DNA from: Thermus thermophilus
Lineage (GTDB): Bacteria; Deinococcota; Deinococci; Deinococcales; Thermaceae
Reading direction: 5' to 3'
Length of the DNA stretch: 64,000 nt
Assembly (NCBI RefSeq): GCF_019974155.1
Contig: NZ_AP025158.1
Span: 868,001 to 932,000, forward strand
Shown here: one piece after another, positions 8,527 through 13,645 of the stretch
How positions within the stretch are numbered: position 1 is the first letter of the stretch
Layout: each line of letters starts with the position of its first letter
Made by a program: the position numbers and the translations under genes
Notes under the pieces: model-generated
Database searches by the model: none
What the model saw: only the letters and a program-made list of their open reading frames with translations
What the model was told of the DNA's origin: nothing

Positions 8527-9194
8527 CCTTTCCCCCCCTTTCGCCAAAGCCCCACCAGGGTCCAGTAGTCCCGCGCCACTCCCTTGGCCGCCCCTAGGGG
8601 CAGGACCCTCTCCCCCGGCATCCCCAGGCGCAAAAAGGCCCACCCTTCCCGGTCGGGAAAGGCCTTTTCTAGGGCCTCGAGGTCCTTGGCCTTGTAAACG
8701 AAGACGCTCTGGAAGCGGTTCAGGCCCTCTGGGTCCACGGGACCAAGCCCCGTCACCGCGGCGAACCCTTCTTCCCCCAGGGCGATGGGCTTAAGGAGGC
8801 TGGCCGCCGCCAGCTGATGGGCGCTGATCCCGGGGACGGCCTCCACCGCAACCCCCTCCAGATAGGGGAGGAGGTTCAAGGGGGAGGCGTAGAGGAGGCT
8901 GTCCCCCAGGACGAGGTACCCTCCCTCTCCGTAGCGGGAAAGGGCCTCCCGGACCCTGTGGGCCGCCTCCCTCCTGGCCCTCTCCGCCTCCTTGCGGTCT
9001 CCCCCGGTGAAGAGGGGCAAGGGGAGGAGGGGCTTGCCCTCGGGGAGGAAGGGCCGGGCGATCCCCAAGGCGATGGGCTCCCTCCCCTCCTCCTTGGGGT
9101 AGAAGAGGACGGGGAGCCTTTGGATGAGCCTTAGCGCCTTCAGGGTGAGGAGCTCGGGGTCGCCGGGGCCCAGGCCGATCAGGTAAAGCTTCAT
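8523..9194 (-). CDS. cbiL: Precorrin-2 / cobalt-precorrin-2 C20-methyltransferase CbiL
   Basis: 223 residues. KLYLIGLGPGDPELLTLKALRLI gives the SAM-binding start, followed by VLFYPKEEGREPIALGIARPF, LVLGDSLLYASPLNLL and AVPGISAHQLAAASLLKPIALGEEGFA, matching CobI/CbiL. With CbiX in the operon the substrate is probably cobalt-factor II. ATG 9194 overlaps the cbiET stop as ATGA, and the stop overlaps the cbiF start the same way. Confidence 0.93.
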   Translation of the reverse strand: MKLYLIGLGPGDPELLTLKALRLIQRLPVLFYPKEEGREPIALGIARPFLPEGKPLLPLPLFTGGDRKEAERARREAAHRVREALSRYGEGGYLVLGDSLLYASPLNLLPYLEGVAVEAVPGISAHQLAAASLLKPIALGEEGFAAVTGLGPVDPEGLNRFQSVFVYKAKDLEALEKAFPDREGWAFLRLGMPGERVLPLGAAKGVARDYWTLVGLWRKGGKG

Positions 9195-10402
9195 GCGACC
9201 TCCTTGGTCACGGCGAGAAGGGTAATGGGGTTTTGCGCCTCGAGGCGGTGGTAGCGGGCGAGGGGCACCACCCGGCTCGCCTGGACCTGGAAGCCCTCCA
9301 GGGGGAGCCCCGTTCCCTTCAAAAAGCCGTAGGCCGCAAGGAGGTTCTCCAGGGTGATGGCCGCCACCACGAGCCTTCCCCCGGGCCTCAGGGCCTCGAG
9401 GCTCACCCGGAGGATCTCCTCAAGCTCCCCCCCGCTTCCCCCCACGAAGACGGCATGGGGGGCGGGGAGGCCCTCTAGGGCCTTTGGGGCCTCCCCCTTG
9501 ACCAGGTGGAGGTTAAAGGCCCCGAAGCGGCGGGCGTTCTCCTCAATGTGGGGCCAGGACTCGGGGTTCTTCTCCACGGCGTAGACCTCCCCCCAAGGGG
9601 CGAGCCTCGCCGCCTCAATCCCCACGCTTCCCGTCCCGGCGCCGATGTCCCATAGGACCCCGTTCGGGGGAAGGCCGAGGAGGCCCAGGGCGAGGAGGCG
9701 GACCTCCCGCTTGGTGATGAGCCCCTTCTTGGGCATCCTTTGCTCAAAGGCCTCGTCGGGGAAGAAGCCGAGCCTTGGGGGAAGGGGCCCCTTGGCCTCC
9801 AGGATGAGGACGTTGGGGTCCAGGAAGCGCTCCTCGGCCACCTCCTTTAGGCCCGCGAAGCTCCGCACCCTTTCGTCCTCCTCCCCAAGCCGCTCCGCCA
9901 CGTGGGCCCGGGCGTCCACGCCCATCTCCAAGAGGGCCCGGGCGATCCGCGCCGGGGTGTGCTCGGGGTCGGTGTAGACCACGGAGAGGGGGGAAAGGCT
10001 TAGCTCCAGGAGCACCCCACCCAAAGGCCTTCCGTGGAGGGAGAAGAAGCGGGCCCCGTCCCAGGGGAGCTTAAGCCTGGCGAAGGCCTCCTGGAAGGCG
10101 GTGGGGGCGGGGTGGACCTCGGCCTCGGGGAAGCGTTCCAGGACCCTTTTGCCGATCCCGTGGAAGAGGGGGTCCCCCGAGGCCAGGAAGGCCACCTTCT
10201 TCCCCTCCTTAAGCCGTGTTTCCGCCAGGTCCAAAAGGGCCTCCAGAGGGCCCTGGACGGGCACCTTCTCCCCGGGGTGGTCGGGGAAGTGGGCGAGGTG
10301 GCGCTTGCCGCCGATCAAGACCTCCGCCTCCTCTAGGCGCCTTAGGGCCTCGAGGCTCAGGCCCTCCCGGCCCCTCGCGCCCATCCCGATCACGTAGACC
10401 AT
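9191..10402 (-). CDS. cbiET: Fused cobalt-precorrin-7 C5-/C15-methyltransferase CbiET
   Basis: 403 residues. The N-terminal CbiE-like tetrapyrrole methylase part (VYVIGMGARGREGLSLEALRRL, VAFLASGDPLFHGIGKRVLERF) is followed from about residue 215 by a CbiT-like Rossmann methyltransferase. The latter shows GLITKREVRLLALGLLGLPP, LWDIGAGTGSVGIEAARL (SAM loop) and AVFVGGSGGELEEIL. CbiE methylates C5; CbiT methylates C15 and decarboxylates the C12 side chain. The fused form is the CobL arrangement. ATG 10402 abuts the cbiC stop. Confidence 0.94.
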   Translation of the reverse strand: MVYVIGMGARGREGLSLEALRRLEEAEVLIGGKRHLAHFPDHPGEKVPVQGPLEALLDLAETRLKEGKKVAFLASGDPLFHGIGKRVLERFPEAEVHPAPTAFQEAFARLKLPWDGARFFSLHGRPLGGVLLELSLSPLSVVYTDPEHTPARIARALLEMGVDARAHVAERLGEEDERVRSFAGLKEVAEERFLDPNVLILEAKGPLPPRLGFFPDEAFEQRMPKKGLITKREVRLLALGLLGLPPNGVLWDIGAGTGSVGIEAARLAPWGEVYAVEKNPESWPHIEENARRFGAFNLHLVKGEAPKALEGLPAPHAVFVGGSGGELEEILRVSLEALRPGGRLVVAAITLENLLAAYGFLKGTGLPLEGFQVQASRVVPLARYHRLEAQNPITLLAVTKEVA

Positions 10403-11101
10403 CTACCCCTCCCTGTGGGCCTTGGAGGTGTCCACCCCCCCGTCCGCCGCGAGGCGGATCAGGGCGTGGAGGGCGGCCACCACCAGGGTGCTCCCCCCCT
10501 TCCGGCCCTCCGTGACGATCCAGGGCACCGGGGCCTCCATGAGGGCCCGCTTGGCCTCGAGGACGTTCACGAAGCCTACGGGCATCCCCAGGACCAGGGC
10601 GGGCCTCGCCCCTTGCCGGATGGCCTCCACCAGGGCGAGGAGGAAGGTGGGGGCGTTCCCCACCCCCACGATGGCCCCGTCCAGAAGCCCCTTTTCCCAG
10701 GCGTAGGCCACCGCCGCCTCGGCCCGGGTCCCCCCCGTGGCCTTGGCCCTTTCCACCACCTCGGGGTGGGCGAGGAGCTCCACCACCTCGTTGCCGAAGA
10801 GCCTGAGCCTTTCCGGGTTTAGGCCGCAGGCGATCATCCGGGCGTCCACCAGGATCCGCGCCCCCTCTTGGATGGCCTTTAGCCCGGCCTCCACCGCTCC
10901 CGGGCTAAACCGGGTAAGCGCCTTGTACTCAAAGTCGGCGGTGGCGTGGATCATCCGGCGCACCACGGGCCACTCCAGGGGGGAAAACCCGTGGGGCCCC
11001 GCTTCCTCGTCCACGATGCGGAAGCTCTCCTCCTCTATGGCCCGCCCCTTTTCCGTCATCTGGTGGGCGGGGTTTTTCTGCGCCCTGATCAGGTCATCCA
11101 C
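10403..11101 (-). CDS. cbiC: Cobalt-precorrin-8 methylmutase CbiC
   Basis: 232 residues from GTG 11101, which overlaps the cbiD stop by eight bases. Signatures are FRIVDEEAGPHGFSPLEWPVVRRMIHATADFEY (including the conserved RMIH histidine), ILVDARMIACGLNPERL, KGLLDGAIVGVGNAPTFLLALVE and ALVLGMPVGFVNVLEAKRAL. It moves a methyl group from C11 to C12 to give (cobalt-)hydrogenobyrinate. The longer open frame upstream is inside cbiD and is not needed. Confidence 0.95.
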   Translation of the reverse strand: MDDLIRAQKNPAHQMTEKGRAIEEESFRIVDEEAGPHGFSPLEWPVVRRMIHATADFEYKALTRFSPGAVEAGLKAIQEGARILVDARMIACGLNPERLRLFGNEVVELLAHPEVVERAKATGGTRAEAAVAYAWEKGLLDGAIVGVGNAPTFLLALVEAIRQGARPALVLGMPVGFVNVLEAKRALMEAPVPWIVTEGRKGGSTLVVAALHALIRLAADGGVDTSKAHREG

Positions 11102-12194
11102 GGTACACCTCCCGGTCGGGCCAGGCGGCGAGGCACCGCCCTTCGTCAAAGTCCGTGAGGGCCACGCTCACAAAGGGCCTTTCCCCGATGTAGGCCTGGA
11201 GCTTCTCCCGGGCGAGGCGGACGAGGTTCACGAAGAAGAGCTCCAGGCCCTCTTCTAAGGCGATCTCCAGGAAGCGGCGGGCGGTGGCCGCCCCTTCCGC
11301 TTCCTTGAGGGCCTTGGGGCTTGCCCCCGCCTCCTTGAGGAGGGAAAGGAGGAGGGAGAGGTTCACCTCGCCCCCGGCGGCGTGGGTCATGGTCTTGCCG
11401 TCGGCCATCTTGGAGATCTTCCCGATCATTCCCACGACGCGCACCACCTCCACCCCCACCTTCCTGGCGGCCCGGAGGACGTCCCCCACGAAGTCCCCCA
11501 TCTCTATGAAGGCCATCTCGGGGAGGTGGGGGAGGAGCCTTTGGGCGAAGCGCTCGCTCTTGCCCCCCGTGGTGGCGGCGATCTCCAAGAGCCCGTTCGC
11601 CCGCGCCACCCCCACCGCCTGGACCACGCTCATGCGGAAGGCGCTGGTGGAGTAGGGCTTCACCACCCCCGTGGTCCCGAGGACGGAAAGCCCCCCGAGG
11701 ATCCCGAGCCTGGGGTTTAGGGTCTTCTTGGCGAGCTCCTCCCCGCCGGGGATGGCGATGGTGATGGCGAGGGGCCTTTCCGTCACCTCCCGCACCGCTT
11801 CCCAGATCATCCGCCTGGGCACGGGGTTGATGGCGGGCTCCCCTACAGGTACCCCGAGGCCGGGCTTGGTCACCACCCCCACCCCCTCGCCCCCCTCGAG
11901 GCGGTCTTCGCTCGCAAAGCGCACAAAGGCCTGGATCTCCGCCCCGTGGGTCACATCGGGGTCGTCCCCGGCGTCCTTGATCATCCCCACCAGGACCCCG
12001 TCCCCCTTCCGTTCTAGGCGGAAGACCCTGAAGGGTTGCCGCCACCCCGCGGGGAGCCAGATGTCCACCACCTCCGGGGCCTCCCCGAGGAGGGCGAGGG
12101 CCGCGGCCTTGGCCGCCGCGGCGGCGTTCGCCCCCGTGGTGAAGCCGATGCGGCTTCCCTTCTTGTCCCGGGGCGGGGGGTAAGGGTGGCTCAT
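11094..12194 (-). CDS. cbiD: Cobalt-precorrin-5B C1-methyltransferase CbiD
   Basis: 366 residues from ATG 12194 (ATGA overlap with the NicT stop). The start has RIGFTTGANAAAAAKAAALALLG, the family's nucleotide/SAM-binding pattern; then DAGDDPDVTHGAEI, AIPGGEELAKKTLNPRLGILGGLSVLGTTG and FIEMGDFVGDVLRAARK. CbiD methylates C1. It is found mainly in early-cobalt-insertion pathways, agreeing with CbiX and CbiG here. Confidence 0.95.
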   Translation of the reverse strand: MSHPYPPPRDKKGSRIGFTTGANAAAAAKAAALALLGEAPEVVDIWLPAGWRQPFRVFRLERKGDGVLVGMIKDAGDDPDVTHGAEIQAFVRFASEDRLEGGEGVGVVTKPGLGVPVGEPAINPVPRRMIWEAVREVTERPLAITIAIPGGEELAKKTLNPRLGILGGLSVLGTTGVVKPYSTSAFRMSVVQAVGVARANGLLEIAATTGGKSERFAQRLLPHLPEMAFIEMGDFVGDVLRAARKVGVEVVRVVGMIGKISKMADGKTMTHAAGGEVNLSLLLSLLKEAGASPKALKEAEGAATARRFLEIALEEGLELFFVNLVRLAREKLQAYIGERPFVSVALTDFDEGRCLAAWPDREVYRG

Positions 12195-12853
12195 GCGGGC
12201 CTTAGGGCGTAGAGCCTCAAGGAAACCAGGAGGCCGAAGAGGCCAAGGCCTAGGGGCAGGGCAAGGGCCTCGAGGTCCACCCCCCCAAGCTCCGCCAGGG
12301 CCAAAAGGAGGGCCACGGCCACCACCGCCCATCCGAGGAGGCGGCTCGCCTCCTCCGCCCTTCGGGAGTCCTTGGCCAGGTTCTGCAGACGGCTCGCCAG
12401 AAGCCCGTCCACCCCGGCCACGAGCAGCATCCCCAGGGTGAAGAAGGCCCCGAGGCGCAAAGGGGAAAGCTCGGCGGAGAGGGCCAGGGCGGAAAGCTGG
12501 CTGGCCGTTTCAAACCCGAGGCCGAAGGGGACCCCGAGGAGGAGGGGGTTGAGGAGGGGAAGCCCTTTCGGGGGGGTGGGAGGGGTGGGCTTTAGGAGCC
12601 GGTAGAGGTTCAGGGCCGCCACCAGGAGGAGGAGGAAGGCGGGGAGGTGGAGGGCCTCGAGGTCCACCCGCCCGAGGAGGTTCGCCGCGGGGAAGGCCAG
12701 GAGGGTGACGACTCCCCCGTGCCCCAGGGCGAAGAGGACGCCGTTAAGGGGCGAGGGCCTCACCCGGGAGAGCCCGTCCACCGCCGCCAGGTGGTCAGGG
12801 TCCACGCCGTGGCGCATCCCCAGGGCCACGGCCAGGAGCTCGAGGCCCGTCAC
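12191..12853 (-). CDS. NicT-family nickel/cobalt transporter
   Basis: 220 residues beginning at GTG 12853. The metal-selectivity motif H-x4-DH is visible as RHGVDPDHLAAVDGLSR near the N-terminus, with FALGHGGVVTLL and LGVPFGLGFETASQ after it. There are about six hydrophobic segments. As the first full gene after the cobalamin riboswitch and ahead of cbiD, it most likely imports Co2+ for the pathway; Ni2+ cannot be excluded. Its start overlaps the stop of a 20-codon leader ORF (GTGA), suggesting coupling. Confidence 0.9.
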   Translation of the reverse strand: MTGLELLAVALGMRHGVDPDHLAAVDGLSRVRPSPLNGVLFALGHGGVVTLLAFPAANLLGRVDLEALHLPAFLLLLVAALNLYRLLKPTPPTPPKGLPLLNPLLLGVPFGLGFETASQLSALALSAELSPLRLGAFFTLGMLLVAGVDGLLASRLQNLAKDSRRAEEASRLLGWAVVAVALLLALAELGGVDLEALALPLGLGLFGLLVSLRLYALRPA

Positions 12854-12912
12854 GGGGCACCTGCCTTTTTCGGGGAGAAGAGGGCTTGGGACCGGTATCC
12901 GCTTCTCTTCAT
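12850..12912 (-). CDS. 20-residue leader ORF between riboswitch and transporter
   Basis: ATG at 12912 lies five bases after a strong Shine-Dalgarno (AGGAGG at 12,918-12,923). The frame encodes MKRSGYRSQALFSP... and ends in a TGA that overlaps the GTG of the transporter. The transporter start itself has only a weak site. The peptide is short and basic with no known motif. The arrangement suggests translation of the leader carries ribosomes to the transporter start, so that riboswitch control of one strong site would set expression of the operon. Confidence 0.55.
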   Translation of the reverse strand: MKRSGYRSQALFSPKKAGAP

Positions 12913-12929
12913 TACCGCCTCCTTTCGCC

Positions 12930-13102
12930 CCTGCTCGGGGGCAGGTGAGGCGCGCACCGGGGCGGGTATTCGGGCTTCCGGCCAAGACGCTAGGCCTGTG
13001 GCTTTGGGCCGGTTACCGTTGCGGCACAGCGCCGGACTTTCACCGGTCTTCCCCCTTTTGCGCCCCAGGACATCCGGGCCCTGGGGCACCCCGGCCGCTC
13101 TC
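12930..13102 (-). promoter_or_regulatory. Cobalamin riboswitch
   Basis: On the minus strand the conserved cobalamin core is plain: GGTGAAAGTCC, then GCTGTGCCGCAACGGTAA (about 13,012-13,047), AGCCACAG (a variant of the usual GCCACTG box), and GAAGCCCGAATACCC (about 12,964-12,979). It lies between cobC and the leader ORF/transporter and should repress the downstream operon when adenosylcobalamin is bound. A short GCCCC/GGGGC hairpin lies just before the AGGAGG site, consistent with translational control; ends are approximate. Confidence 0.93.
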
Positions 13103-13108
13103 GCCTGT

Positions 13109-13137
13109 GTTTTACCCGGTCGCTTCCTTCCCGTCAA
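13109..13137 (-). promoter_or_regulatory. Promoter for the riboswitch-led cobalamin operon
   Basis: Minus strand TTGACG (13,132-13,137), 17-base spacer, TAAAAC (13,109-13,114), overlapping the cobC stop codon. Transcription would start just upstream of the riboswitch core. The last base of the -10 departs from TANNNT. Confidence 0.5.
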
Positions 13138-13645
13138 GGGAGAGGCGGGCGAGCACCCTCCTGGGCCAGTCCACCGCCACCGCGCTCCCCGGGGGCACGA
13201 AGCGGTCCTCCCCCAAGGCCCTGAGCACCGCCCGCACCACCCCCCCGTGGGTGAAGAGGACCGCAGGGGCTTTAAGCCCCTCCAGGAAGCGGAAGACCCG
13301 CTCCTGAAAGGCGGAGAGGCTCTCTCCTCCCGGGGGGTGGAAGCCCTGGAAGCGGAGGAGGGCTTCCCTATAGCGGGGGTCCAGGGCCTCCCAAAGGGCC
13401 CCCTCCAGCGCTCCGAAGTGGATCTCCCGAAGCTCGGGGGCAAGGCGCGGGGAAAACCCCGCGAGCTCCGCCGTCCGCCTCGCCCGCAGGAGGTCCGAGC
13501 TGAAGGCGGGAAGGGGGGGAAGCGCCCCCCGGAGCCTCCTCGCCTGGGCCTCCCCCTCCGCCGTGAGGGGGAGGTCCGTCCAGCCGAGAAGCCTTCCCTC
13601 CCGGTTCCATAGGGTCTCCCCGTGGCGCACGAGCCAAAGCTCCAT
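13112..13645 (-). CDS. cobC: Alpha-ribazole phosphatase (histidine phosphatase family)
   Basis: 177 residues. The catalytic RHG motif is in LWLVRHGETLWNREGRLLGWTDLPLT. Also visible are FSSDLLRARRTAEL, LREIHFGALEG and VLFTHGGVVRAVL with the second catalytic His. The family removes phosphate from alpha-ribazole phosphate (or adenosylcobalamin phosphate) late in nucleotide-loop assembly. ATG 13645 lies six bases after a TACCCT -10 box, so the message is probably leaderless. It is divergent from cobT. Confidence 0.88.
   Translation of the reverse strand: MELWLVRHGETLWNREGRLLGWTDLPLTAEGEAQARRLRGALPPLPAFSSDLLRARRTAELAGFSPRLAPELREIHFGALEGALWEALDPRYREALLRFQGFHPPGGESLSAFQERVFRFLEGLKAPAVLFTHGGVVRAVLRALGEDRFVPPGSAVAVDWPRRVLARLSLDGKEATG

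Follow-up and report, generated by a model that had tools for sequence, protein, structure and literature searches.

A leader cistron with a conserved reading frame may relay a cobalamin riboswitch to a cobalt transporter gene in Thermaceae

Introduction

In 2024, experiments on a single pathogen gene showed a riboswitch gating a leader cistron that is coding-neutral (PMC11260477). In this system, ppe2/uPPE2 of Mycobacterium tuberculosis, the available text of the paper describes a B12 riboswitch followed by a short upstream open reading frame (uORF) with a Shine-Dalgarno (SD) sequence masked by a hairpin. Translation of the uORF is required and works mainly by termination-reinitiation, and the introduction of the paper states that the effect of riboswitch-associated uORFs on gene expression had not previously been addressed (PMC11260477). 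Termination-reinitiation is also described, in the accessible parts of two further papers, for co-directed gene pairs with 4-nt overlaps in which both partners are normal genes (PMC6728339, PMC10666635), and coupling in E. coli and Haloferax depends on short overlaps (PMC10666635). A review proposes that driving the downstream gene is the sole function of certain ribosome-delivering short uORFs (PMC12548453); a riboswitch as the gate is unmentioned in its available text, where the word occurs 0 times.

Here we analyze a B12 riboswitch locus in a window of Thermus thermophilus DNA, the whole stretch of 64,000 nucleotides under study. Like ppe2, it has a short uORF with a strong SD after the aptamer, an SD predicted to be masked by a hairpin, a 4-nt NUGA overlap joining uORF and first gene out of frame and a B12-related operon downstream, and the partial peptide conservation of the two uORFs counts as a further likeness (PMC11260477). 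The Thermus target differs from ppe2 in being a NicO transporter with cbi genes, in a different phylum, and its first gene has a moderate SD, whereas the available text reports none for ppe2, a lack that coupling in general does not require (PMC11260477). The Thermus layout is conserved across two genera and known here from sequence alone, while the ppe2 case is experimental (PMC11260477). Its 4-nt overlap and co-directed genes recall the termination-reinitiation pairs, although here a short cistron lacking a conserved sequence takes the upstream place (PMC6728339, PMC10666635), and it resembles the uORFs of the review in its apparent function but differs in having a riboswitch as the gate (PMC12548453).

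A search of the open literature by titles and abstract openings, a scope outside which most subscription papers lie, returned no description of the Thermus riboswitch leader. We file it as a further, family-wide conserved case of the recently described ppe2-type layout. Retention of the layout in two genera of another phylum opens it to comparative testing, as a frame that is preserved while its sequence drifts. The case also bears on annotation, in that considering only the first long gene can lead to the wrong direct target being assigned to a riboswitch; the leader is listed as a gene in none of the 13 annotated plasmid stretches that were fetched.

Layout of the locus

The riboswitch sits between a cobC-like phosphatase gene and the NicO-family transporter gene, and the leader ORF lies between aptamer and transporter (Table 1). 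Downstream of the transporter follow cbiD, cbiC, cbiET and another tetrapyrrole methylase gene, in that order, with later operon junctions overlapping or abutting too. The whole arrangement from the cobC-like gene to the cbi genes is on the minus strand. On Thermus plasmids, the transporter is annotated as "nickel permease".

A putative promoter is found at the end of the cobC-like gene. The TTGAC of its -35 hexamer is invariant in 15/15 aligned upstream regions, even where the surrounding upstream sequence diverges, and the core of the putative -10 is retained in the same alignment. A consensus promoter scan missed this site, as the scan demands T at the last -10 base.

Table 1 Features of the riboswitch, leader and operon in the window
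Feature	Position	Strand	Evidence or remark
Putative -35 hexamer, TTGACG	13132..13137	-	inside 3' end of cobC-like gene
Putative -10, TAAAAC	13109..13114	-	sequence; 17 nt past -35; overlaps cobC-like stop codon
cobC-like alpha-ribazole phosphatase, upstream of riboswitch	13112..13645	-	PF00300; TIGR03162 105 bits, below cut-off 162.9
Cobalamin riboswitch aptamer	12945..13108	-	RF00174, 47 bits, E 1.2e-08, gathering score 31.5
Aptamer L5 loop, TGAAAGT	13036..13042	-	
Predicted SD-sequestering hairpin, GCCUC-ACC-UGCCCC-CGAGCA-GGGGCG-AAAG-GAGGC	12917..12951	-	folds and alignment
Leader Shine-Dalgarno, AAAGGAGG	12918..12925	-	predicted duplex -17.1 kcal/mol with 16S 3' tail
20-codon leader ORF, MKRSGYRSQALFSPKKAGAP, then stop	12850..12912 (12912-12850)	-	open reading frame
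Transporter moderate Shine-Dalgarno, AGGTG	12858..12862	-	4 nt from GTG
Leader stop/transporter start 4-nt overlap, GTGA	12850..12853	-	transporter GTG at 12853-12851
NicO-family cobalt/nickel transporter, 220 aa	12191..12853	-	PF03824 47.6 bits, cut-off 27.7
cbiD	11094..12194	-	PF01888, NF000849; 4-nt overlap (ATGA) with transporter
cbiC	10403..11101	-	PF02570; 8-nt overlap with cbiD
cbiE-cbiT fusion	9191..10402	-	TIGR02467, TIGR02469; abuts cbiC directly

The first-pass annotation had placed a 20-codon leader with a strong ribosome site between a cobalamin riboswitch and the transporter gene, and all three elements were recovered, the riboswitch with a score above the gathering score of its family. 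The SD AAAGGAGG is near-perfect, and its AGGAGG (12923-12918) is indeed five bases upstream of the leader ATG. The overlap of the transporter GTG with the leader stop also stood, at 4 nt, but the description of the transporter site as weak did not: AGGTG is of moderate strength, with a predicted duplex energy of -12.1 kcal/mol vs -17.1 for the leader. Averaged over 14 loci, SD duplex energies were -15.0 for leaders and -10.6 for transporters, as compared with -3.6 kcal/mol for shuffled transporter 22-mers. The 16S 3' tail used for pairing is present twice in the genome.

Both strands of the whole window were scanned for a strong SD followed by an ORF of 8-45 codons with an exact 4-nt overlap with an ORF of at least 100 codons, and the leader/transporter site was the single match. 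Sixty Markov sequences of the same length as the window gave a mean of 0.17 matches and a maximum of one; chance is therefore not negligible for a single site, and the evidence for the leader lies in its conservation instead.

Riboswitch and predicted SD-masking hairpin

The aptamer helices P1 and P2 show compensatory changes across 15 sequences. A search for an L5-L13 kissing pair gave nothing convincing: the one match was of 4 nt, between GUGA (13043-13040 region) and its complement UCAC at 12948-12945, and is a weak candidate contact. The riboswitch 3' part from anti-SD through leader SD is near-invariant. It is predicted to fold into a hairpin over the leader SD, some 60 nt upstream of the transporter start. 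All 11 pairs of this hairpin are kept in 15/15 sequences, and the outer five, which form the SD helix, are invariant; the inner stem has one-sided G-U changes at two pairs. Unlike P1 and P2, the sequestering helix thus has no covariation support in the 15 sequences.

Across 14 loci, the leader SD is masked by the hairpin in most predicted folds. In 2/14, the window's own locus included, the lowest-energy fold pairs the same leader SD with a different upstream stretch. Between 12600 and 13700, no intrinsic terminator-like site was found. SD/anti-SD pairing 3' of the aptamer and the absence of a terminator together point to a predicted translational, SD-sequestering expression platform, and because the hairpin is conserved and there is no terminator-like site, the riboswitch is best read as an OFF switch on the leader. 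No antisequester was identified; an extension of P1 (AGGCG with CGCCU) was considered for this role and dropped, its 5' part not being conserved.

The transporter start itself is neither strongly nor consistently sequestered in the predicted folds. Structure-based coupling through a masked transporter start is unsupported by these folds, and a start that is not strongly folded speaks against coupling by unfolding and leaves room for some independent initiation.

Conservation of the leader frame

Among 50 Thermaceae genomes examined, 14 carry the transporter, and 13 of these (12 Thermus and one of another genus) are readable upstream; the remaining genome, G021, was left out since its contig begins within the transporter gene. 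The first-pass annotation had named a leader frame broken in relatives as the observation that would count against it, and no such break was found: 13/13 readable genomes, and likewise 13/13 plasmid records fetched, have an uninterrupted leader of 20-22 codons that terminates on NTGA and lies in a different frame from the transporter. All 32 loci read have an open leader with an NTGA end, representing 15 distinct Thermus leader sequences, and the locus from the second Thermaceae genus (L121) adds one more, also open and ending on NTGA. The out-of-frame NUGA overlap is thus shared by 32/32 loci and L121.

Counted from leader ATG to transporter start, the distance takes the values 59, 62 and 65, all of them 2 mod 3. 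On the drawn transporter-gene tree, which has modest support and from which L017, L018 and L121 are absent, leader length changed five times, each time by a multiple of three; by our own reckoning, at least four changes are needed if the open forks of the tree are resolved most favourably. Outside the leader, spacing varies by single bases, with 66, 67 or 68 between box and leader ATG. For a contrast set of 26 Thermus Peripla_BP_2-type B12 riboswitches, the box-to-ATG distances are spread over the three classes mod 3 (11, 8 and 7).

For frame counts, a species-level set of 15 leaders was used, with L025 dropped as near-identical to L023. All 15 leaders are open in the sense frame, as against 4 in the +1 frame and 5 in the transporter frame. 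When neutral evolution was simulated at matched divergence, with substitutions but without indels, about 7% of runs ended with all 12 tips open, so an open frame by itself is weak evidence. Taken together with length changes in multiples of three, it is good evidence, at the level of sequence comparison, that the frame is conserved. A shuffle product of 3.8e-5 ignores relatedness and is not usable as a probability.

The transporter gene is broken with the leader intact in L024, L025, L032 and L018. Among the broken transporters, that of HB5018 has 113 aa open, that of TF24 has 211 aa, and that of SNM1-7 has 182 aa with a transposase gene inserted. In genome G014, the transporter match covers residues 1-52 only, and the leader is intact.

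Leader peptides, by comparison, diverge strongly among species. Differences are spread about equally over codon positions 1, 2 and 3 (0.438, 0.433 and 0.488 in 16 leader sequences), and because of this, selection appears from the alignment to keep the leader frame and not the peptide product. The content of K+R is alike in the three frames (0.25, 0.20 and 0.23). A Pro codon immediately precedes the leader UGA (12856-12850 in the window, minus strand) in 13/15 species-level leaders, which could also reflect a C-rich spacer. In E. coli, a C-terminal proline can stall termination, with no expression effect in the authors' own assay, according to the available text (PMC7246954).

An overlapping antisense gene was rejected as the source of the open frame, since every antisense frame is closed in at least one of the 14 sequences. 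The best is open in 13/14 for the leader alone; with flanks, the frames are open in 11, 6 and 0 of 14.

Proposed mechanism and alternative readings

The first-pass annotation suggested that the riboswitch acts through leader translation and coupling, a proposal that gains support from the conserved frame and from the predicted hairpin over the leader SD. We consider it probable that the riboswitch switches leader translation OFF and that this control reaches the transporter by relay, through termination-reinitiation. In the proposed pathway, transcription from the putative promoter in the 3' end of the cobC-like gene would yield an mRNA starting with the B12 aptamer. With B12 bound, the predicted 3' hairpin would hide the leader SD; in the absence of B12, ribosomes would load at the very strong leader SD, translate 20-22 codons and terminate at the leader UGA, which has four bases in common with the transporter start. 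They would then reinitiate at this start and go on through the overlapping cbi genes. The leader would act as a ribosome delivery cistron, for which frame, strong SD and exact end matter and, judging from the alignments, amino-acid sequence does not; supplying the cobalt transporter and B12-synthesis genes with ribosomes at their start appears to be its only evident job.

We infer that the leader is translated, that the switch responds to ligand and that the transporter depends on the leader. Dependence may be incomplete, given the transporter's own moderate SD, which may help to capture the terminating ribosome and may permit some independent initiation. A stricter version, in which an obligatory relay, evolved independently of the mycobacterial one, controls the whole operon and frame, SD and terminal Pro-UGA alone matter, seems to us rather doubtful. 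Here, slow release at Pro-UGA would hold the ribosome over the overlapping start and so raise reinitiation.

Several other readings were weighed. Leader translation might mainly shield the nascent mRNA from Rho, with B12 blocking leader translation and so stopping transcription before the operon. No intrinsic terminator was found, and the available text on ppe2 records that its authors at first considered Rho as well; however, shifting the stop argued against Rho in that system (PMC11260477), and protection requires neither an exact 4-nt overlap nor a fixed transporter register, yet both are kept at the Thermus loci. We regard this reading as unlikely. Less likely still is that the transporter initiates independently from its moderate SD, the leader being dispensable and lightly translated and the riboswitch occluding ribosome access generally. 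The margin of transporter SDs over shuffles and the lack of strong folding at the transporter start would both fit, but retention of frame and overlap across several length changes is left unexplained, as is the placement of the leader's SD within the predicted hairpin.

A peptide that matters, as a small protein or an arrest/attenuator peptide, could account for the recurrent proline before UGA. It is very improbable given the absence of codon-position bias, the similar K+R in all frames and the strong differences between species, and the combination of no codon-position bias with no terminator does not fit a leader-peptide attenuator. The leader might finally be a true N-terminal extension of the transporter, split by a frameshift, a sequencing error or a programmed -1 frameshift. 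In the window, the transporter frame runs through the leader without a stop (ORF 12191-12985), and a minor frameshift fusion is reported for ppe2 in the available text (PMC11260477), but the transporter frame is closed within the leader in 10/15 species-level sequences while the -1 relation is kept in all, which makes this reading barely credible. Sequencing error is excluded by recurrence of the layout in independent assemblies, and a programmed -1 frameshift at the A-run was rejected because the A-run is not conserved.

Other B12 riboswitch sites

A single detector was run on 100 B12 riboswitch sites, with loci L061, L063 and L091 excluded for cut flanks. Among transporter-type sites, the leader-type layout was flagged at L021, L062 and L121, and L064 was missed, its transporter being truncated. 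Acidobacterial relatives of the transporter (L003-L005) had no riboswitch match. Of the Peripla_BP_2-type sites in Thermus, 9/26 were flagged; each has a +2 gap and none a 4-nt overlap, and these flags are taken as due to chance. At thioesterase-type sites, 0/21 were flagged. Other Deinococcota sites gave 8/49 detector flags, four with a 4-nt overlap, and may thus include further relay cases.

The Peripla_BP_2-type riboswitches (L020, L036-L060; identity of the gene behind the riboswitch established for L037) combine an SD-masking stem, CCTACCTCCC/GGGAGGTAGG, with a terminator-like hairpin that in many copies has a T run. At L022 (G000:C1:739272-739361) and L065-L084, a Thermus B12 riboswitch precedes a 4HBT thioesterase gene, an unusual target. 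At these thioesterase-type sites, conservation of the post-aptamer block CCCCGTAGCCCTCGAGGCAAGGGTGAAGGTGGTGATGCC is striking, and many copies of the block begin a 5-codon ATG ORF.
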